In this document: positions 2,501-48,835 of the stretch, one piece after another | How the letters are laid out: every line of letters starts with the position of its first letter | How positions within the stretch are numbered: the stretch's first letter is position 1 | IMG/VR virus record: IMGVR_UViG_3300036780_000414 | Location: 18,796 to 82,795 of that record | Length of the DNA: 64,000 nt | Direction: 5' to 3' (one strand) | DNA from: a virus | Position numbers and translations under genes: made by a program | Notes under the pieces: model-generated | The model's input: the letters and a program-made list of their open reading frames with translations, nothing else | What the model was told of the DNA's origin: nothing | Databases searched by the model: none

Positions 2501-2617
2501 GCAACCTGTTGCCTAAGAGGCGGTTAAGCAGCTGCTGGGACTCCCCCGGATGGAGTACCTTTTCAGCGGACACGGACGCGCCCGCGAGACCGCACCACTG
2601 ACCCGCAGGAGATGCCC

Positions 2618-3670
2618 GTGACGATCTACTTCCCGGACATCAGCTCTTTCCAGGGCGGTATCAGCCTGTCCGGGGCGCTGGCTGTGGCGGTCAAGCTCTG
2701 TGAGGGCACCGGCTACGTCAACCCTTACTACGCGTCGCAGGCGCTGGAGGCGCAGCGGCGGAAGTCGTTCCAGCTGGGTTACCACTTCCTCCACCAGGGG
2801 AACGGCGCCGCTCAGGGTGACTTCGCGCACGCGCACGCGGGAGCGGTGCCGATGATGGTGGACGCTGAGCCGCTGACCGGGCTGGACGGGACACCGAACC
2901 CCCGTTCGGCGCTGGTCAGCGACCCGGAGATGATGCGCGGCGTCAAGCTGTCGTCCGCGCCGTCGATCGCGGACATCTGCGCATTCACCGATGAGTACCG
3001 GGCTAAGGGCGGGGTGCTGCACTGGGTGTACCTGCCGCGCTGGTACTGGCTGGAGATGGGCTCACCGTCGCTGGCCCCGCTCGCTGAGCGGGGGCTGCTG
3101 CTGTGGTCGAGCCAGTACACCAGCTACACCGACGCGGGCAGCGGCGCCGGCTGGCAGCCGTACGGGGGGATGACCCCGCAGTGCTGGCAGTACACGGCGT
3201 CGCTCAGCTTCGGCGGCATCGCCAACGTGGACTTCAGCGCGTTCCGCGGATCGAGGTACGCGGGCAAGCAGGACAGTGCGAGCGTTAAGGCGGCGCTCGC
3301 TGAGTTTGAGGCGCTGTCCCGCACCGGCAAGGTGGCCCCGCCTGCGGCTGTGCTGCCGCCTGTGCGGGACCTGCGGGTCGTCGCTGTCGGTAAGACGACG
3401 GTGAAGCTGCAATGGCAGTCCCCTACCGGGCAGTCACCGTTTGGGGTGAGCTGGTACGAGATCGGCGCGCAGTACGCCGAGGGTCCGAAGAAAGGGCAGG
3501 ACGTGTGGCCGGGCCGGTGGGTGAACAAGAACCTCAGCAGCAGCCTGGAAGTCCACCAGTTCGGGTCCATCCCGCACGGGGTGAAAGTCAACATGATCGT
3601 CCGCGCCGCCGACCGGGACCGCCTGCACGGCTCCGAGTGGGCGACCGTGCAGATCGAGATCACCACCTGA
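2618..3670 (+). CDS. endolysin: GH25 muramidase with C-terminal FN3-like domain
   Basis: Cleaves host peptidoglycan at the end of infection. GTG 2618 is preferred over ATG 2612 because the AGGAG lies directly against that ATG but 6 nt before the GTG (350 residues). The GH25 signature is clear: FPDISSFQG at residues 5-13 with the catalytic-site Asp 7, and VDAEP at 81-85 carrying the Asp-x-Glu pair (82-84). The GH25 fold fills roughly residues 1-215. After a linker, residues about 255-350 (VRDLRVVAVGKTTVKLQW onward) look like a fibronectin type III domain, possibly for wall binding. No signal peptide, so release should depend on the downstream holin. First gene of the lysis cassette. Confidence 0.9.
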   Translation: MTIYFPDISSFQGGISLSGALAVAVKLCEGTGYVNPYYASQALEAQRRKSFQLGYHFLHQGNGAAQGDFAHAHAGAVPMMVDAEPLTGLDGTPNPRSALVSDPEMMRGVKLSSAPSIADICAFTDEYRAKGGVLHWVYLPRWYWLEMGSPSLAPLAERGLLLWSSQYTSYTDAGSGAGWQPYGGMTPQCWQYTASLSFGGIANVDFSAFRGSRYAGKQDSASVKAALAEFEALSRTGKVAPPAAVLPPVRDLRVVAVGKTTVKLQWQSPTGQSPFGVSWYEIGAQYAEGPKKGQDVWPGRWVNKNLSSSLEVHQFGSIPHGVKVNMIVRAADRDRLHGSEWATVQIEITT

Positions 3671-3686: not shown

Positions 3687-3848
3687 TTGGCGCCGAACGA
3701 CGCGCCCGCCCCTGAGATCACCGCAGCCTGGTTGCTGACACTCAACTGCGGTCATATCACCCGTATTGAGGGCGGGCCGGTACAACCCTTGGTACATTGC
3801 GCCTCATGCGGGCAGGACAGCATGGTTTCGCTGGCCGTCCGGCAGTAG
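3687..3848 (+). CDS. small zinc-knuckle-like protein in lysis cassette
   Basis: A 53-residue reading frame beginning at TTG, 5 nt after AGGAG, and ending 8 nt before the holin start. It contains Cys-Gly-His and a later His-x-x-x-Ser-Cys (NCGHI ... HCASCG), a compact CH/CC metal-binding pattern. No signal peptide or membrane helix. Its place between endolysin and holin suggests a lysis-related or host-directed role, but function is unknown. Confidence 0.6.
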   Translation: MAPNDAPAPEITAAWLLTLNCGHITRIEGGPVQPLVHCASCGQDSMVSLAVRQ

Positions 3849-3856
3849 GAGGAACG

Positions 3857-4165
3857 ATGAGTGACCTGGTTGTCTCGTGGATCCGAACCGGCTGCGCGGT
3901 GCTCGCCGGGGCGCTTATCACCTGGGCGGTCCGGCAGGGCCTGATCGCGGATGCTTCCGTGCAGGGGCCGCTGACGGAAGTGCTGGTGGTCGGCATCACG
4001 GCAGCCTGGTACTTCATCGTCCGGGTGCTCGAAAAGGTCAACCCGGCGTTCGGGTTCTTCCTCGGCGTCCCGAAGGCACCCACCTACACGCCGCCCCCCA
4101 CCGCTGTCACGCAGCCCAGCCGCGTGCGTGGCAGCGGGGCGCAGCCGCCGACTGAGCGGTTCTGA
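3857..4165 (+). CDS. holin
   Basis: A 102-residue membrane protein starting at ATG 3857, 6 nt after AGGAGG; the ATG upstream lacks such a site. Two hydrophobic helices (about residues 12-27 and 40-58) are followed by a Pro/Thr/Arg-rich cytoplasmic tail. Size, topology and position right after an endolysin without signal peptide fit an actinophage holin, which would open the membrane and release the muramidase. Last gene before the terminator at 4200. Confidence 0.8.
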   Translation: MSDLVVSWIRTGCAVLAGALITWAVRQGLIADASVQGPLTEVLVVGITAAWYFIVRVLEKVNPAFGFFLGVPKAPTYTPPPTAVTQPSRVRGSGAQPPTERF

Positions 4166-18340: not shown

Positions 18341-18372
18341 AACCCCAGTATACCACCCACATGTGAGGAGTA
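18341..18372 (-). promoter_or_regulatory. strong promoter with CACATGTG element
   Basis: Minus strand CACATGTG (18358-18365), GGTGG, TATACT (18347-18352), GGGGTTGTAA. One of the clearest members of the family. Start codon 18320. Confidence 0.8.
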
Positions 18373-41628: not shown

Positions 41629-41721
41629 ATGTCCAATGTAGCAGCCCGCGCTCACATTCAGGCGTGCGACACGACCGCAGCCGGTTACATGATGCGTCAG
41701 GGGCCGGTGAGCGCAGCATGA
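41629..41721 (+). CDS. 30-residue leader ORF
   Basis: MSNVAARAHIQACDTT... starts at ATG 41629, weak AAGGCAGG upstream, and ends in an ATGA overlap with the next gene. Probably a coupled leader peptide. Confidence 0.4.
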   Translation: MSNVAARAHIQACDTTAAGYMMRQGPVSAA

Positions 41722-41999
41722 CGACTCTGCGCGTGCACCCGGACTACGCGGACCCTGACTACAGCCTGGAGCTTGACCGGAACCCGGGGCTTCCCCGGCA
41801 GCTGGTCTCAGACCGGGCGCTGACCCTCACCGAGTACCGGCTGGCCTACTACGTCTTCTCGCACCAGGCGACCCCGCCGCTGCCGACAGCCGCGCAGATC
41901 GCCGCGCGCTGGTGGGTGAGCGTCACCGAGGCCGAGGCGCAGGCGGCACTCGACAAGCTGGCAGCGCGCGGCTACCTGGTCGCAGGTGAGCAGCGGTGA
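41718..41999 (+). CDS. small winged-helix protein, 93 aa
   Basis: ATG 41718, overlapping the leader stop. After an acidic start, LTLTEYRLAYYVFSHQAT, PTAAQIAARWWVSVTEAEAQ and LDKLAARGYL form a DnaD/replication-type winged helix (helix, recognition helix, wing). Overlaps the next gene by 4 bp; probably works with it in replication initiation. Confidence 0.6.
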   Translation: MTTLRVHPDYADPDYSLELDRNPGLPRQLVSDRALTLTEYRLAYYVFSHQATPPLPTAAQIAARWWVSVTEAEAQAALDKLAARGYLVAGEQR

Positions 42000-42886
42000 G
42001 CGGCGACGGGGCCACCTACACGCGCAAGCGGTACCACCACGGCGGCGGTTTCGTGCACGCCACCAATGACTTCGCCCGCAACGTCCCCAGCACCGACGCC
42101 GTTGCCATCTGGCTACGGCTGTACTCCCACCAGGACGGCTGGGAGTTCACCGTCAAGAGCATCGCTGCCGAGTGGAACATCAGCTTCAAGCGCGCCGAGA
42201 CGGCGATCAGGCTGCTGCGCGACCTGGGCTACTGCCACTTCTGCCGCGTCAGCCTGGGGCGCGGCAAGTTCGAGAGCTGGTACGACCTGACCGACGTGCC
42301 GGTCATGGCCTGCGGCGAGCAGCAGTGCGTGGACTGCGCGGCCCGGAGTTCATCGGTATCGGGTAGTCAAAAACAACCACCCGATACGACCTGCGACGAT
42401 ACCCCTGTTTCCGCAGGTCGTATCGGGTGGTCGGATTACGGGGTCCGTAAAACAACCACCCAAGTAGAAGAACATCTACTAGAAGACCAAGAAGACAAAG
42501 ACCTTAAAACCTTTGCGCAAGCAGGCTCGCGCGAGCCTGAGTCTGATGCCCTGTTCCTGGTGCCTGAGCAGCCCAAGCCAGCAGCTGGCCGAGCCCGCAA
42601 GCCCGGTGACCTGACTGCGTTCGATGAGTTCTGGCGGGCGTACCCGCGCAAGAAAGGCGGGAAGGCGGGCGCCCAGAGGAAGTTCCTCGCCGCGCTGAGG
42701 CAGGCCAGCGCCGAGACGATCATCGCGGCGGCGGCGGCGTTCGCTGACCGGTGCGAGCGGGCGAGGACCGAGGAGCAGTTCATCCCGTACCCGTCAACCT
42801 GGCTGCACCAGGGGCGGTGGACGGACGAGCACGCGGAGGAGGAACCGGAGGCAGCCGCCGCCGCATTTACGTCGTTCGATATCTGA
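41996..42886 (+). CDS. replication-initiator-like protein with internal origin-like sequence
   Basis: 296 residues, GTG 41996 (GTGA). N-terminal winged helix (SIAAEWNISFKRAETAIRLL, residues about 60-80) like phage replication proteins; a Cys cluster ACGEQQCVDCAARSS; C-terminal EFWRAYPRKKGGKAGAQRKF ... FIPYPSTWLHQGRW, the usual ending of helicase-loader/initiator proteins. The linker between (about 42356-42530) is A+T-rich and repeat-filled at DNA level, as in lambda O, where the origin lies inside the initiator gene. Precedes the DnaB-type helicase. Confidence 0.75.
   Translation: MSGDGATYTRKRYHHGGGFVHATNDFARNVPSTDAVAIWLRLYSHQDGWEFTVKSIAAEWNISFKRAETAIRLLRDLGYCHFCRVSLGRGKFESWYDLTDVPVMACGEQQCVDCAARSSSVSGSQKQPPDTTCDDTPVSAGRIGWSDYGVRKTTTQVEEHLLEDQEDKDLKTFAQAGSREPESDALFLVPEQPKPAAGRARKPGDLTAFDEFWRAYPRKKGGKAGAQRKFLAALRQASAETIIAAAAAFADRCERARTEEQFIPYPSTWLHQGRWTDEHAEEEPEAAAAAFTSFDI
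42356..42461. other. candidate replication origin inside initiator gene
   Basis: A 20-bp perfect inverted repeat (42376-42395 with 42412-42431, 16-nt spacer). Iteron-like GTATCGGGTRGTC occurs at 42356-42368 and 42420-42432 and inverted at 42375-42387. A 13-bp direct repeat AAAACAACCACCC lies at 42370 and 42449. Followed by a distinctly A+T-rich tract to about 42530. Confidence 0.65.
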
Positions 42887-42902
42887 GAGAGGGAGAAAGA
42901 CG

Positions 42903-44234
42903 ATGCAGGACGATTACGAGCTACCCAGCGACATCGACGCGGAACGGTACCTGCTGGCATCGATGATGCAGAGCAGGGAAGCGATAGCCGCAGCAGCGGA
43001 GTACCTGGACCCCGGTGACTTCTACCGGGCGGCGCACCAGGTGATGTTCCGGGCGATGGTGTTCATGTTCGCGGCCGACGAGCGAACCGACCCGGTGACG
43101 CTGCGCGCGTGGATCACTGGCGACGGCGACATGAAGGTGTTCGGCCAGCAGGGCGCGGTCTACATCGCGGAGCTGTACGGGCTCCCGGCCAACCCCATCT
43201 CGGCGGTGCACTACGCGCGGCTGGTGCGCGCCGCAGCGCTGCGCCGCCGTGGCATCGAGCAGGCGCTGAAGTTCCGGCAGGCGCTGATGATCGAGTCCAA
43301 CGACCCGGATGAGATCCTGTCCCGCTATGACGCGCAGCTGGAGGCCGCCCGGCAGATCGCCGCGCCGCAGCAGCTCGCCGTGCTCGACTACGCCGCCGTC
43401 ACCGAGCGCGTCCACAAGGAGCACGCCCCCGTCGTGCCCGGCCTGATCGGCGAGCAGGACCGCGTAGTCGTCGTGGCTGAGGAAGGCGTCGGCAAGACAA
43501 CCCTCGCGCACCAGGTCGCGTTCTGCGCCGCCGCCGGCATTCACCCGTTCCAGTGGGGCACCCGGACCATCCCGAAGCGCGTGCTGATAGCCGACTTCGA
43601 GAATCCCGCGCTGGAGCTCGGCTCGCGGTTCTCGAAGCTGGGCGAGGCGGCGGCCCGCTACCCCGGCTGGGATGAGGGGAATGTCCGGTTCTACCTGCGG
43701 ATGGGCGGCATCAACCTGCTGCGCGCGCAGGACGCGTTCGAGTTCATGGACGCCATCCGCCGGTTCGAGCCGCACCTGGTGGTCGCCGGGCCGATCTACA
43801 AGATGATCACCGGGATCAAGCAGAGCGACGACGGGCTCCGCGCCCATGCGGCCGTCGCCGCGTTCTTCGACAAGGTGCGGGAACGGTACGGGTCGGCCGT
43901 CTGGCTGGAAGCGCACGCACCGTACGGGTCAGGCGGCCACCAGCGGGAGCTGCGGCCGGAAGGCTGGAACGGGTGGGCGAAGTGGCCTGAGTTCGGCCTG
44001 GCGCTCCACAAGGCGACGAAGGCGCACGGCGGCGACCAGGGCGCGGTGGAAGTCAGGCGGTTCCGCGGGGACCGGATCGCGTCCCGCCCGTGGCCGTCGT
44101 GGATGACCCGCAACCTGATGTTCCCGAGCAGCGGGTTCCCGTGGACCGGCTGCTGGGCGAAAGGCGTACTCGATACCCCGCTGGACCTGCGTGCCGAGGA
44201 CAACGGGTACGAGGACAAGCGCTATGGCGACTGA
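42903..44234 (+). CDS. replicative DnaB-type helicase (DnaB-N plus AAA_25 ATPase)
   Basis: 443 residues, ATG 42903 after GAGAGAGGGAG. Residues about 8-125 match the DnaB N-terminal domain (SDIDAERYLLASMM, VMFRAMVFMFAADE, AVYIAELYGLPANP). A RecA-like core follows with Walker A AEEGVGKTT (192-200), strand RVLIADFENP and Walker-B-like HLVVAGPIYKM (291-301), typical of AAA_25 helicases of actinophages. No primase domain. Unwinds the phage fork. Confidence 0.85.
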   Translation: MQDDYELPSDIDAERYLLASMMQSREAIAAAAEYLDPGDFYRAAHQVMFRAMVFMFAADERTDPVTLRAWITGDGDMKVFGQQGAVYIAELYGLPANPISAVHYARLVRAAALRRRGIEQALKFRQALMIESNDPDEILSRYDAQLEAARQIAAPQQLAVLDYAAVTERVHKEHAPVVPGLIGEQDRVVVVAEEGVGKTTLAHQVAFCAAAGIHPFQWGTRTIPKRVLIADFENPALELGSRFSKLGEAAARYPGWDEGNVRFYLRMGGINLLRAQDAFEFMDAIRRFEPHLVVAGPIYKMITGIKQSDDGLRAHAAVAAFFDKVRERYGSAVWLEAHAPYGSGGHQRELRPEGWNGWAKWPEFGLALHKATKAHGGDQGAVEVRRFRGDRIASRPWPSWMTRNLMFPSSGFPWTGCWAKGVLDTPLDLRAEDNGYEDKRYGD

Positions 44235-44832
44235 CCTGTTGCGGGTGCTGGGCTTCGACCAGTCGCTCACGTCGTTCGGCGTCGCCGCGATCTACGGCGC
44301 GGAAGCGGAGGCGTGGCGGCTGCGGTACCCGCCCAGGAAGCCAGCGTACGACGTGCGCGCCTACCAGCATGAGCGCCTGGCGTACCTGGAAGACGGCGTG
44401 CGCAGCGCGGCCAGCGGCGCTCACGTCGCCGCGCTGGAGGACGTGACGTACGCGGCTAAGGGTGACGCGCTGACCGACCTGGCGGGCCTGTTCTGGATGG
44501 TGCGCCACGTCCTGTGGGAGATGCACGTCCCGTACGCCGTGGTCAACAGCAGCCACCGCCGCAAGTGGATCACCGGCCGTGGCGACGCGCCCAAGGACGA
44601 GGTGCTGGCGGCGGTGATCAAGCGGTTCCCTCGCGTCAACGTGTGCGGCAACGACGAGGCTGACGCGCTGGTGCTGGCCGCCATGACCGCCGACCGCTAC
44701 GGCTGCCCGATCGTGCAGATGCCCGCCGACCGGGCGGCCATCCTGAACGGCGTGCACACGACCAAGCCGAAGCGCGGCCAGCCGCTGATCGACTGGCCAC
44801 AGCTGCGGGAGACGGTAAGACGGACACCATGA
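44224..44832 (+). CDS. RuvC-like Holliday junction resolvase
   Basis: 202 residues, ATG 44224. RNase-H-fold acids: LGFDQSLTSFG (Asp12), ALEDVTYAAKG (Glu72) and GNDEADALVLA (Asp144/Asp147), with the helix WMVRHVLWEMHVPYAVVNSSHRRKW in the RuvC position. Resolves recombination or replication branches. Overlaps the helicase by 11 bp and the methyltransferase by 4 bp. Confidence 0.8.
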   Translation: MATDLLRVLGFDQSLTSFGVAAIYGAEAEAWRLRYPPRKPAYDVRAYQHERLAYLEDGVRSAASGAHVAALEDVTYAAKGDALTDLAGLFWMVRHVLWEMHVPYAVVNSSHRRKWITGRGDAPKDEVLAAVIKRFPRVNVCGNDEADALVLAAMTADRYGCPIVQMPADRAAILNGVHTTKPKRGQPLIDWPQLRETVRRTP

Positions 44833-45443
44833 GTAGTCTGTTTCCCGAGCCCGTCGCGGAGCCTGGCGCCGGCCAGGCGCCCAGCAGGTTCAGTAACAGG
44901 CTGCGGTACCGCCGGGAAGATCACCCGAACCAGTGCCAGATCACCCCGGAGTACGTACTGATCCCCGTCCGGGCGGCGCTCGGCGGGATCATCGGCCTCG
45001 ACCCGTGCACCACGCCAGACAACCCCGTGGGGGCTGAGCGGTTCTTCTGCCCGCCCGCTGACGGTGCCGCTCTCCCCTGGGACTCGGGCAGCATCTTCGT
45101 TAATCCGCCGTACGGCAAGGCCCGCGAGCGGTGGGTTAGGAAGTGCCTTACGGCGGGGTTCGCCGGCAGCACGGTCATCTTGCTGATCCCCGCCGCGACG
45201 GACACGGGTGTATTCCAGCAGGCACTAGGCAGCGCGCAATCGGTCGTGTTCATTCAGGGCCGTGTCAAGTTCGGCGTGACGCGGCCGAACCAACGGCAGG
45301 CAGCTGCGAGCCACCCGTCTGCGCTGATCGGATGGAATACGGACCTGGCGGCGTGCGCATACCTGGGCACGGCCGCTACGCCTGTCGTCACCCGGCCCGT
45401 GCTGGAGGCGGCCAGGCCGCAGATCGAGAGGGAGCCGGCATGA
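44829..45443 (+). CDS. DNA N6-adenine methyltransferase (phage Dam type)
   Basis: 204 residues. QITPEYVLIPVRAALGGIIG, LDPCTT (58-62), RFFCPP and VNPPYGKARERW (NPPYG 92-96) form the phage DNA N-6-adenine-methyltransferase signature. It probably methylates adenine in the phage genome and could add to the guanine modification encoded 6 kb downstream. Start ATG 44829 overlaps the resolvase stop. Confidence 0.85.
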   Translation: MSSLFPEPVAEPGAGQAPSRFSNRLRYRREDHPNQCQITPEYVLIPVRAALGGIIGLDPCTTPDNPVGAERFFCPPADGAALPWDSGSIFVNPPYGKARERWVRKCLTAGFAGSTVILLIPAATDTGVFQQALGSAQSVVFIQGRVKFGVTRPNQRQAAASHPSALIGWNTDLAACAYLGTAATPVVTRPVLEAARPQIEREPA

Positions 45444-45508
45444 CGGTTGTCATGAGCGAGCATCGCCGACGACACGGGCGGCCAGCCATTGGGAGGAGTG
45501 CAGCATGA
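45440..45508 (+). CDS. 22-residue Arg-rich linking ORF
   Basis: ATG 45440 and TGA 45508 overlap the genes on both sides as ATGA. Encodes MTVVMSEHRRRHGRPAIGRS.. Probably a coupling element rather than a folded protein. Confidence 0.35.
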   Translation: MTVVMSEHRRRHGRPAIGRSAA

Positions 45509-45696
45509 CCGCTAAGCGCCGCTGCTGGTGGTGCGGCCAGGAGGCCGAGGTGGACACGAGCCTGCCGGAATCGGCCGGGCTGGTCCGCGACGACAGCACG
45601 ACGGACGGGTCTGAAAGCTGGATCTGCGCCGACAACCAGGCGTGCAACGAGCGCGCCAAAGCATCACGTTTCAAGACCGAGAGGGGAACTACCTGA
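45505..45696 (+). CDS. small zinc-finger protein, 63 aa
   Basis: RRCWWCGQEAEVD, then WICADNQACNERAK: two Cys pairs, a zinc ribbon. ATG 45505 with GGGAGGAG upstream. Unknown. Confidence 0.65.
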   Translation: MTAKRRCWWCGQEAEVDTSLPESAGLVRDDSTTDGSESWICADNQACNERAKASRFKTERGTT

Positions 45697-46040
45697 TGCC
45701 CGGACCCCTGAAGCTGCGCGCGCAGCTTCCCGATGACCGCCACAACGGGCTGGTCGACCCGGCTAAGGTGACGGACTTCCTGTCGCAGCCGCGTAACGCC
45801 GTGCTGGTGGTCGGCGTGCTGTACTGCCCGACGACGGAGGTGAACAACGAGACCGGCGCCAGCGTCCCGGTGGTGCGGTTCAAGCACATTGAGGTGGTGT
45901 CGCCCGGCCATGACGCCTACGGGCTGGTCGCGGAAATCCTCCATCAGGAGCACCAGGGGCGCACTGGTGAGATGATGCTCCCGTTCCCGCCTGGGGAGGA
46001 CATCCGCATTTCCGGGGAAACCGACAGCAACGAGGAGTAA
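45696..46040 (+). CDS. hypothetical protein, 114 aa
   Basis: ATG 45696 (TGATG). Beta-rich (NAVLVVGVLYCPTTEVN, VPVVRFKHIEVVSPGHDAYG), then EILHQEHQGRTG. The regular strands and VVRFKHIEV are reminiscent of small phage recombination or annealing cofactors; no firm family. Located within the DNA-metabolism genes. Confidence 0.6.
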   Translation: MPGPLKLRAQLPDDRHNGLVDPAKVTDFLSQPRNAVLVVGVLYCPTTEVNNETGASVPVVRFKHIEVVSPGHDAYGLVAEILHQEHQGRTGEMMLPFPPGEDIRISGETDSNEE

Positions 46041-46047
46041 ACACCGC

Positions 46048-46962
46048 ATGACCGAAACGCAGCAGTTGCCGTCCGGCCTGTCGTGGTCCGTCACCCGCCG
46101 CCGCATCCCGTGGCACGCGGCGGAAGGCCCGCGTGCGCTGCCGCTGGGCCGGCACGTGAACCACGACAGCCGCAACCTGTGGTACCCGTACCGGCGGACA
46201 GCGCCGACGCTGGTCCGTGTCGTGCACGCCCGGAACATCCCGATCCTCGACCAGGGCGACGTGGGCAGCTGCACGGGCAACGGTGAAGTCGGCGTGCTCG
46301 GCTGCGACCCGAACTACGCGGCGCTGCCCGCAGGGCACCCGGCGCTGAACGAGGCTGAGGCGCTGAAGATCTACAGCGGCGCGGAGGTCATCGACGGCGA
46401 CGGGCCGTACCCGCCGAACGACGACGGCAGCAGCGGCCCGAGCGCGGCGAAGGCGGCGATGCAGCTGGGCCTGATCTCCGGGTACACGCACTGCCTGTCA
46501 CTCGAAGACGTGCTCGACGCCTTGCAGACGCAGGCGGTCAGCATCGGGATCAACTGGTACACGTCGTTCGACAACCCGCCGTCGTCCGGGCTGCTGACGA
46601 TCAGCAAGGGCGCGACGGTGCGCGGCGGTCACGAGCCGATGCTGCGCGGCATCGACGTGGACGCGCAGACGGTCCTCGGGGACAACTCCTGGGGCGAGTC
46701 CTGGGGTGTTCAGGGTAGCTTCAGCATGGGCTGGGCGACGCTGGAGCGGCTGCTGGGCGAGCAGGGCGACGGCACGGTGTCGGTGCCGCTCGGCTCCCCC
46801 GCCCCGGTCCCGGTGCCGCCGTCGCCCGTCCCGGTCGCGGACGCGGCAGATACCACGCTGTGGGCGGCCACCGAGGGCTGGTCAGCTGAGACGCACGTCG
46901 AGGGCAACCGCAAGGCCGCGCAGGCCGTGCGGACCTGGGCGGCGGCCAAGGGACTTTCCTAG
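46048..46962 (+). CDS. papain-like (C1-type) cysteine peptidase
   Basis: 304 residues, ATG 46048. The complete papain set is visible: oxyanion Gln69, catalytic Cys75 in ILDQGDVGSCTGNG, His195 in GGHEPMLRGID and Asn213 in DNSWGESWG. Between them, GPSAAKAAMQLGLISGY is the usual second helix. A Pro/Val linker (PVPVPPSPVPVADA) leads to a short C-terminal domain (245-304). No signal peptide, so it acts in the cytoplasm or is packaged. Similar proteins occur in other actinophages, role unknown. Last gene before the DUF932 promoter. Confidence 0.8.
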   Translation: MTETQQLPSGLSWSVTRRRIPWHAAEGPRALPLGRHVNHDSRNLWYPYRRTAPTLVRVVHARNIPILDQGDVGSCTGNGEVGVLGCDPNYAALPAGHPALNEAEALKIYSGAEVIDGDGPYPPNDDGSSGPSAAKAAMQLGLISGYTHCLSLEDVLDALQTQAVSIGINWYTSFDNPPSSGLLTISKGATVRGGHEPMLRGIDVDAQTVLGDNSWGESWGVQGSFSMGWATLERLLGEQGDGTVSVPLGSPAPVPVPPSPVPVADAADTTLWAATEGWSAETHVEGNRKAAQAVRTWAAAKGLS

Positions 46963-46983
46963 CGACGCGATCACCCCATTACC

Positions 46984-47002
46984 CACATGTGTGTGGTACT
47001 CT
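46984..47002 (+). promoter_or_regulatory. rightward promoter with CACATGTG element
   Basis: CACATGTG (46984-46991), TGTGG, TACTCT (46997-47002), the same geometry as the leftward promoters. Start codon 47058 with GAGAGAGGG. Confidence 0.75.
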
Positions 47003-48502: not shown

Positions 48503-48835
48503 ATGAGGGAAGTCAGGGCAGGTGAGCCGTTGTTCACCGAGGGTGACGAGCCGGAACGCCTGCTGTTCACTGAGGAGTTCGCGACGCTGCTGGGCGTGAC
48601 CCCGGCGACGCTGCGCGGTTACCATGCGGACGCGCGACGGGCGAGGCGGCTGCGGAAGCCGGCGCACTTCCCGCCGCCGGACGAGGTGGTGCGCCGTACC
48701 AGCATCAAGGCGAACCGGCAGCCGGTCGTGGCGCAGACACCGGTATGGCGGGAGAGCAAGGCGAAGCACTACGCGGACAACCGGCTGGGTCCGGGTGGCC
48801 GCCCCCGCGCGCAGCTCGGCCAGGAAGCCGGCTGA
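48503..48835 (+). CDS. HTH-type DNA-binding protein, 110 aa
   Basis: ATG 48503 after GGAGGAG. RLLFTEEFATLLGVTPATLR is a MerR/excisionase-like helix-turn-helix (residues 19-38) and the C-terminal half is basic. TGATG overlap with the next gene. May control the downstream modification operon. Confidence 0.65.
   Translation: MREVRAGEPLFTEGDEPERLLFTEEFATLLGVTPATLRGYHADARRARRLRKPAHFPPPDEVVRRTSIKANRQPVVAQTPVWRESKAKHYADNRLGPGGRPRAQLGQEAG

Follow-up and report, generated by a model that had tools for sequence, protein, structure and literature searches.

Introduction

Papain-like peptidases of the C1A group are known from tailed phages. Xylellain-type members are reported to have been acquired by Myoviridae and Siphoviridae (PMC10380794), in a passage that gives neither gene context, nor tail, nor role for them. 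Xylellain itself, a C1A enzyme of Xylella fastidiosa, has a solved structure (3OIS), and its substrate is described as unknown in the relevant part of PMC12090721. A further link between phages and this fold comes from mycobacteriophage lysins; according to a section of one review, the LysA N5 domain matches papain-family cysteine proteases (PMC6116114).

The gene considered here lies in a virus record of 82,795 bases. The stretch of DNA analysed, called the window below, comprises bases 18796–82795 of that record (64,000 nucleotides), and positions refer to the window unless a locus number (L) precedes them. The encoded protein is almost certainly a C1A papain-like enzyme of the xylellain type.

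The gene and its relatives

The open reading frame of the original prediction is borne out: it runs from 46048 to 46962 on the plus strand, begins with ATG and encodes 304 residues. This ATG is the earliest start codon downstream of an in-frame stop ending at 45975. The G+C fractions by codon position (0.68/0.54/0.93, in a window of 68.5% G+C) are consistent with a coding frame and, together with homology, place the frame beyond chance.

46048..46962, plus strand: coding sequence of the 304-residue xylellain-type C1A papain-like peptidase (profile, fold model, residue conservation)
46032..46037, plus strand: likely ribosome-binding site GAGGAG, 10 nt before the ATG (sequence)

The virus record encodes one copy of the gene, and a search across the whole record found no second one. 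DNA relatives of the 40–64 kb region were sought among phages in 'near' mode, and none was found. Protein relatives are encoded in 45 of 50,697 phage records (some being duplicate entries of one phage), in 23 of 72,556 plasmid records (all from Streptomyces or Kitasatospora) and in 104 stretches of GTDB genomes, of which 80 were kept. In IMG/VR, the single-protein query gave 54 loci, while the alignment query gave at least 469 confirmed loci (80 kept). The study set consists of 200 loci (L002–L201), namely the 54, seven annotated phage stretches, a further 80, and 59 newly met. The closest relative among the loci is L002, at 72% identity. Residue conservation was read from alignment A1, with 41 sequences: the window protein and 40 of the 54 single-query IMG/VR loci, leaving out exact duplicates (L004, L006, L012, L015, L016, L020), near-duplicates (L014, L026), long proteins (L027, L034, L038, L043) and fragments (L036, L040).

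Contigs assigned to Holophagaceae/Geothrix (L077, L079, L080, L085, L132 and similar ones) carry relatives that have no signal peptide. On several of the Holophagaceae contigs the neighbours look chromosomal by eye (ClpB-like, alanine dehydrogenase-like); the family therefore probably extends beyond viruses.

The window protein had been described as cytoplasmic and free of a signal peptide. The latter is confirmed, as the frame offers no earlier start codon and residues 1–45 contain no hydrophobic stretch. By crude hydropathy, a signal-like N-terminus occurs in none of the 200 family loci when the start nearest the core is taken, and in one when upstream starts are taken. Enzymes released by holins or carried in virions likewise have no signal peptide; its absence is not decisive for location, and the word cytoplasmic is thus only half justified.

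Fold and catalytic centre

Among family profiles, PHROG 16701 ('peptidase') matches the protease at E 1.6e-38 over most of its length (profile positions 5–229 of 234). The Pfam profile PF00112 gives 16.2 bits (E 0.011) against a curated cut-off of 20.7, the cut-off being a detection aid and not a definition of C1A; 17 of the 41 aligned sequences match this profile at E 0.01 or better, and the window's sequence is outside these 17. A search of NCBIfam gave no match for the protease, for the gene upstream or for 48503–48832.

The AlphaFold model built from the 41-sequence alignment (mean pLDDT 91.5) shows the two-domain papain fold. Its best match among solved structures is xylellain (Z 20.7, rmsd 2.6 over 214 residues, with model residues 20–249 aligned; E 4.7e-10 in Foldseek). 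Xylellain is also the top match by profile (E 4.3e-13), in an alignment that pairs the Cys, His and Asn motifs of the two proteins. Thus, the predicted structure gives no sign that the catalytic residues lie apart: both model and motifs align with xylellain.

46048..46206, plus strand: N-terminal segment, residues 1–53, of which about 24–53 are prosegment-like (conservation and alignment ranges)
46207..46797, plus strand: papain-fold catalytic core, residues 54–250 (model, structural and profile matches)
46252..46254, plus strand: Gln69 codon (sequence, conservation)
46270..46272, plus strand: Cys75 codon (sequence, conservation; intein directly before the equivalent residue in L027)
46630..46632, plus strand: His195 codon (sequence, conservation, xylellain profile alignment)
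46684..46686, plus strand: Asn213 codon (sequence, conservation, xylellain profile alignment)

Gln69, Cys75, His195 and Asn213 are all present where they had been predicted. Gln69 presumably forms the oxyanion hole, and Cys75 is taken to be the nucleophile. In A1, Q69, C75 and H195 are invariant and N213 is found in at least 90% of the sequences. An earlier alignment of 48 distinct rows has the full Q-C-H-N set in 43 and Gln in place of Asn in three; the other two are contig-end fragments that lack the first half. Profile, fold and conservation all speak strongly for the original proposal of a papain-like peptidase whose catalytic set is intact, and on the strength of sequence and model the protein is very probably active.

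Inteins tend to occupy the conserved active sites of enzymes that are needed. In L027, which belongs to the same clade as the window protein, a 360-residue insert (L027:4930–6009) starts with Cys, ends with His-Asn and lies directly before the catalytic Cys; it matches Pfam Intein_splicing at 44.1 bits (cut-off 35.8). Given the site preference of inteins, this position supports a working Cys75. An intein 46% identical to that of L027 is inserted at the equivalent position of a distant C1 peptidase (L228:906–1988), and split profile matches occur in L136, L140 and L142. A separate insert of intein form, with a Cys start, an HN end and Ser at +1, precedes the Ser of an NWYDSM motif in L043 (2862–3650). 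Its matches to Pfam Hint and LAGLIDADG are both sub-threshold, and the genes that host its relatives in L230 and L231 look by eye like DNA polymerase.

A prosegment-like N-terminus

The segment preceding the core is conserved in its own right; L33 and R35 are invariant in A1, and G34, D40 and R42 reach 90% or more. Twelve of the 50 structures listed are pro-forms, zymogens or precursors by title, including procathepsins B, H, K and L3, the Der p 1 pro-form, procaricain and a papain precursor, and their alignments begin at model residue 23–25. Most mature enzymes among the same 50 align only from residue 49–55, the exceptions being two Trypanosoma brucei cathepsin B chains and one processing intermediate, which start at 34–43. 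These starting points put residues ~24–53 in the propeptide position, ahead of the mature N-terminus. Since this segment aligns with procathepsin propeptides, the protease is probably a zymogen; a built-in prosegment, read from alignment ranges to the model and not from contacts, is on balance the likelier reading of the segment.

The C-terminal hairpin

The original prediction had noted an unexplained short domain after a Pro/Val linker. This domain is real, in that it is helical in the model and also folds alone at high pLDDT (97.6 when modelled from 16 tails).

46798..46839, plus strand: Pro/Val linker, residues 251–264 (sequence, alignment)
46840..46959, plus strand: C-terminal two-helix hairpin, residues 265–304 (model, tail profile)

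The two modelled helices span residues 266–279 and 285–300, and one aspartate, two tryptophans, one histidine and one lysine are invariant. A profile of the hairpin is positive in 62 of the 200 loci (40 of 147 after dereplication at 80% identity) and matches none of the other called ORFs of these loci; in the virus record the hairpin occurs once. A tblastn search of phages with the L005 tail found nothing. Two scans of IMG/VR with two tail subtypes gave 24 loci, of which the 23 newly numbered ones all fall on protease ORFs and the remaining one is L029, a family member. Within these limited searches, the hairpin is restricted to these proteases.

Neither Foldseek with the hairpin's own model nor a sequence search of the PDB gave a match; a new fold is not claimed for so simple a structure, a helical hairpin of 42 residues. 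An Lsr2-type DNA-binding tail was considered and rejected (Pfam E 0.091; score 12.6 bits, cut-off 26.9; half of the Pfam model covered).

Other relatives bear other tails, which makes the C-terminus look like a swappable module. The tail of L038 carries a hydrophobic segment (by eye). In L042 (1781–2689) the hairpin is replaced by a tail that resembles PG_binding_1, the one such match among the 41 members; its sequence hints at wall targeting in that branch.

Genomic surroundings in the window

46048..46962 is preceded by replication genes and followed by a repeated element; the endolysin gene lies near the start of the window.

41664..46040, plus strand: same-strand upstream run of replication initiation protein, DnaB-like helicase, RuvC-like resolvase and DNA methyltransferase
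45642..46040, plus strand: upstream 132-residue gene, 7 nt from the protease gene (weak homologues in six related loci)
46981..46994, no strand: palindromic element ahead of the following gene (47058, PHROG 1221)
2612..3670, plus strand: the phage's own GH25 endolysin, no protease adjoining
3797..4165, plus strand: small protein following the endolysin, with two stretches of hydrophobic residues (no Pfam match; the L163 homologue directly follows the protease)

The protease gene ends the replication-gene run, so its placement in the replication region is correct for the window; it is not general among relatives. This site would fit an enzyme of host takeover, made early with the replication genes, staying in the cytoplasm and cutting host defence or regulatory proteins. 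The missing signal peptide, shared by crude hydropathy with nearly all 200 family loci, points the same way, as does the location of the gene away from annotated lysis modules in phages BirdsNest and Shaeky. A protease that is constitutively active in the cytosol would not be expected to have a prosegment-like N-terminus, and relatives of the protein group with lysis or structural genes; host takeover is accordingly regarded as a rather doubtful explanation. While the observation of the site stands, the replication-phase or host-protein role once read from it is weakly founded, because relatives repeatedly adjoin lysis or head/tail-connector genes.

The listed weak homologues (~26%) of the 132-residue gene are found in terminase-type loci (L011, L012, L014, L015, L018), on the opposite strand and about 2.6–4.6 kb from the protease. 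From such sequence matches, the gene is a possible travelling companion of the protease. A 2-TM gene, c6, which neighbours the protease in terminase-type loci, was sought in the window and L202 and gave no match.

The palindromic element, centred around ACCCACATGTG, repeats between genes at 18355, 37747, 39135, 40393, 41250 and 46981; there are 12 matches at one mismatch or fewer against 1.39 expected, with overlapping matches and both strands counted. Its copies adjoin TGGTA-type sequences that resemble an extended −10, and most face the minus strand by eye. To judge by these sequences, the elements look like a promoter/operator set of the phage. A search for sigma-70 promoters and terminators at 41–49 kb found none.

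The endolysin gene (2612–3670) is 42 kb from the protease gene at 46048, and in its own genome the protease does not adjoin endolysin or holin genes. Four window genes in this region (40–618, 1333–2460, the endolysin gene and 3797–4165) have homologues in L163 with their order kept; the first two have no PHROG label and are tail-like by position. In L163, the protease separates the endolysin from the small membrane protein, whose called start reaches into the protease gene and is probably set too far upstream. L037 shares the first three of these genes, and there the protease directly follows a holin-type gene. From this homology around the endolysin, the window phage has the same type of cassette with the protease elsewhere.

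Genomic surroundings in relatives

Proximity to lysis genes recurs in annotated phages. In Forza, GMA2, Lilbeanie and Aleemily the protease lies between the endolysin genes and the holin, and in Mufasa8 it directly follows the holin; the small gene before the GMA2 protease matches the final part of PHROG profiles for endolysins. No lysis gene is annotated within 6 kb, where the record extends that far, in Mycobacterium phage BirdsNest or Streptomyces phage Shaeky, many of their neighbours being hypothetical.

Counted over gene clusters (single linkage, labelled from a few representatives), the class found within three genes in 94 dereplicated viral loci is endolysin/holin in 30, head in 14, tail terminator in nine and none recognised in 41. 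The 53 genome loci have endolysin/holin in 17 and none in 36. Endolysin clusters occupy 31 of 544 gene positions at distance 1–3 and 2 of 474 at distance 4–6 (Fisher p 3.8e-7). In a PHROG scan of direct neighbours, endolysin families lead at +1 (phrog_1493 in 10 of 93, a set into which one known endolysin, that of L076, had been put beforehand); at −1 the leading families are tail terminator (8 of 93) and terminase.

With such neighbours, the protein might itself be a peptidoglycan endopeptidase, cutting wall peptides in the manner of an endolysin. The GMA2 homologue is annotated 'putative lysin', one of 41 relatives (L042) matches PG_binding_1, and weaker fold matches among viral proteins include the endolysin of Gordonia phage OneUp (E 5e-5) and a mycobacteriophage lysin A (E 3e-3); the likeness of LysA N5 to papain-family proteases, as given in that section of PMC6116114, belongs here too. 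Set against this, the nearest folds are C1A enzymes that cut proteins and the window protein has no wall-binding domain, which makes a wall peptidase improbable.

The clade of the window protein (the window and 17 others; FastTree support 0.94) has a different setting. Its neighbours are tail terminator in nine, terminase/portal in six and none recognised in two (L002 included), with no lysis genes. Among viral representatives, 4 of 38 hairpin carriers are near lysis genes compared with 26 of 56 non-carriers, whereas 21 of 38 carriers are near terminase, portal, S78 protease or tail-terminator genes compared with 2 of 56 (Fisher 9e-9, uncorrected for descent). Shared descent could explain much of this association.

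The frequency of hairpin carriers beside head and tail-terminator genes would suit a protease of virion assembly, or one borne by the virion, that processes or travels with a structural protein and uses the hairpin as a docking module. In L023 and L153 the order is terminase–protease–portal with small ORFs between; the portal is labelled by eye, the terminase by eye in line with PHROG terminase matches, and both clusters differ from the L010 type. The window copy, in turn, is away from structural genes, and the phage encodes a head maturation protease of its own (L202:4669–6735; PHROG 3894, E 1.2e-101), so that the window protein would not be the sole protease of the head module; L010 likewise encodes an S78 protease in addition. 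A virion role is hence unlikely. The targets had been proposed to be host proteins or phage proproteins: the phage's own maturation protease makes head proproteins less likely, and host proteins are kept as the most likely guess.

Proposed role

The preferred reading, still a tentative one, is that the protein is an accessory, self-inhibited protein endopeptidase of the late or lysis phase in this phage. It would be made without a signal peptide as a zymogen, in which the N-terminal segment (~24–53) would cover the active-site region until cut or displaced. Cys75 and His195, with Asn213 and Gln69, could then cleave protein substrates, and the C-terminal hairpin on its Pro/Val linker may dock the enzyme to a partner. 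The phage might use this activity late or at lysis, beside the separate endolysin, with host proteins as the most likely targets from the moment of membrane breach onwards.

The clustering of the family with lysis genes and the row of endolysin, protease and membrane protein in L163 support this timing. It is weakened by the distance of the window copy from the endolysin, by a clade of its own without lysis neighbours, and by the smaller share of hairpin carriers near lysis genes. The 41 of 94 viral loci without a scored class, the BirdsNest and Shaeky sites and the chromosome-like Holophagaceae copies weaken it as well.

A broader proposal is that in many phages a papain-type zymogen provides a separate proteolytic activity that takes part in ending infection, held back by its prosegment (in L027 also until the intein at the catalytic Cys splices), set free when the prosegment is lost and steered by the hairpin to envelope or virion-assembly sites; as a general rule this is a long shot. 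If true, such an enzyme would degrade proteins that peptidoglycan and lipid lysins leave untouched. Because the gene is found repeatedly next to endolysin and holin genes, the idea of a protein-cutting partner of phage lysis can be tested directly, and Cys75 offers a clean single-residue test of the protease role.

Comparison with known systems

In the partial literature covered by a limited search, no functional study of this phage protease family was found, for all its several hundred loci in IMG/VR; the word papain is absent from the portion available of a paper on lysis of G. rubripertincta (PMC9671378). The xylellain-type peptidases of Myoviridae and Siphoviridae, as far as that passage of PMC10380794 describes them, form the same general group as the window protease and likewise occur in tailed phages.

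Xylellain has the same fold, the same catalytic motifs and an N-terminal segment of similar length. The two proteins differ in sequence (~20% identity), and the hairpin tail of the window protein extends beyond the aligned range. With procathepsins and papain precursors the window protein shares the core fold and the position of a segment before the mature N-terminus; the propeptides of those enzymes are longer, and the enzymes have signal peptides.

Nearest among annotated phages are the actinobacteriophage proteins of PHROG 16701 (Mufasa8, Forza, GMA2, Lilbeanie), with 27.8–38.5% identity over the core among the 40 matches listed. Many of these relatives are annotated peptidase, cysteine protease or lysin, and none of the records matches 80% of the window query. 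In five of the seven annotated phages the protease belongs to a lysis cassette; by profile none of the seven has the hairpin, and Shaeky ends in a shorter stretch that looks by eye like one of the two hairpin helices.

The kind of enzyme is therefore already known, both as a xylellain-type peptidase in tailed phages and as the 'cysteine protease' of annotators. Relative to the limited and partial literature searched, what is new here is the hairpin variant, the reading of the N-terminus as a prosegment, the statistics on neighbouring genes and the intein found at the nucleophilic Cys.
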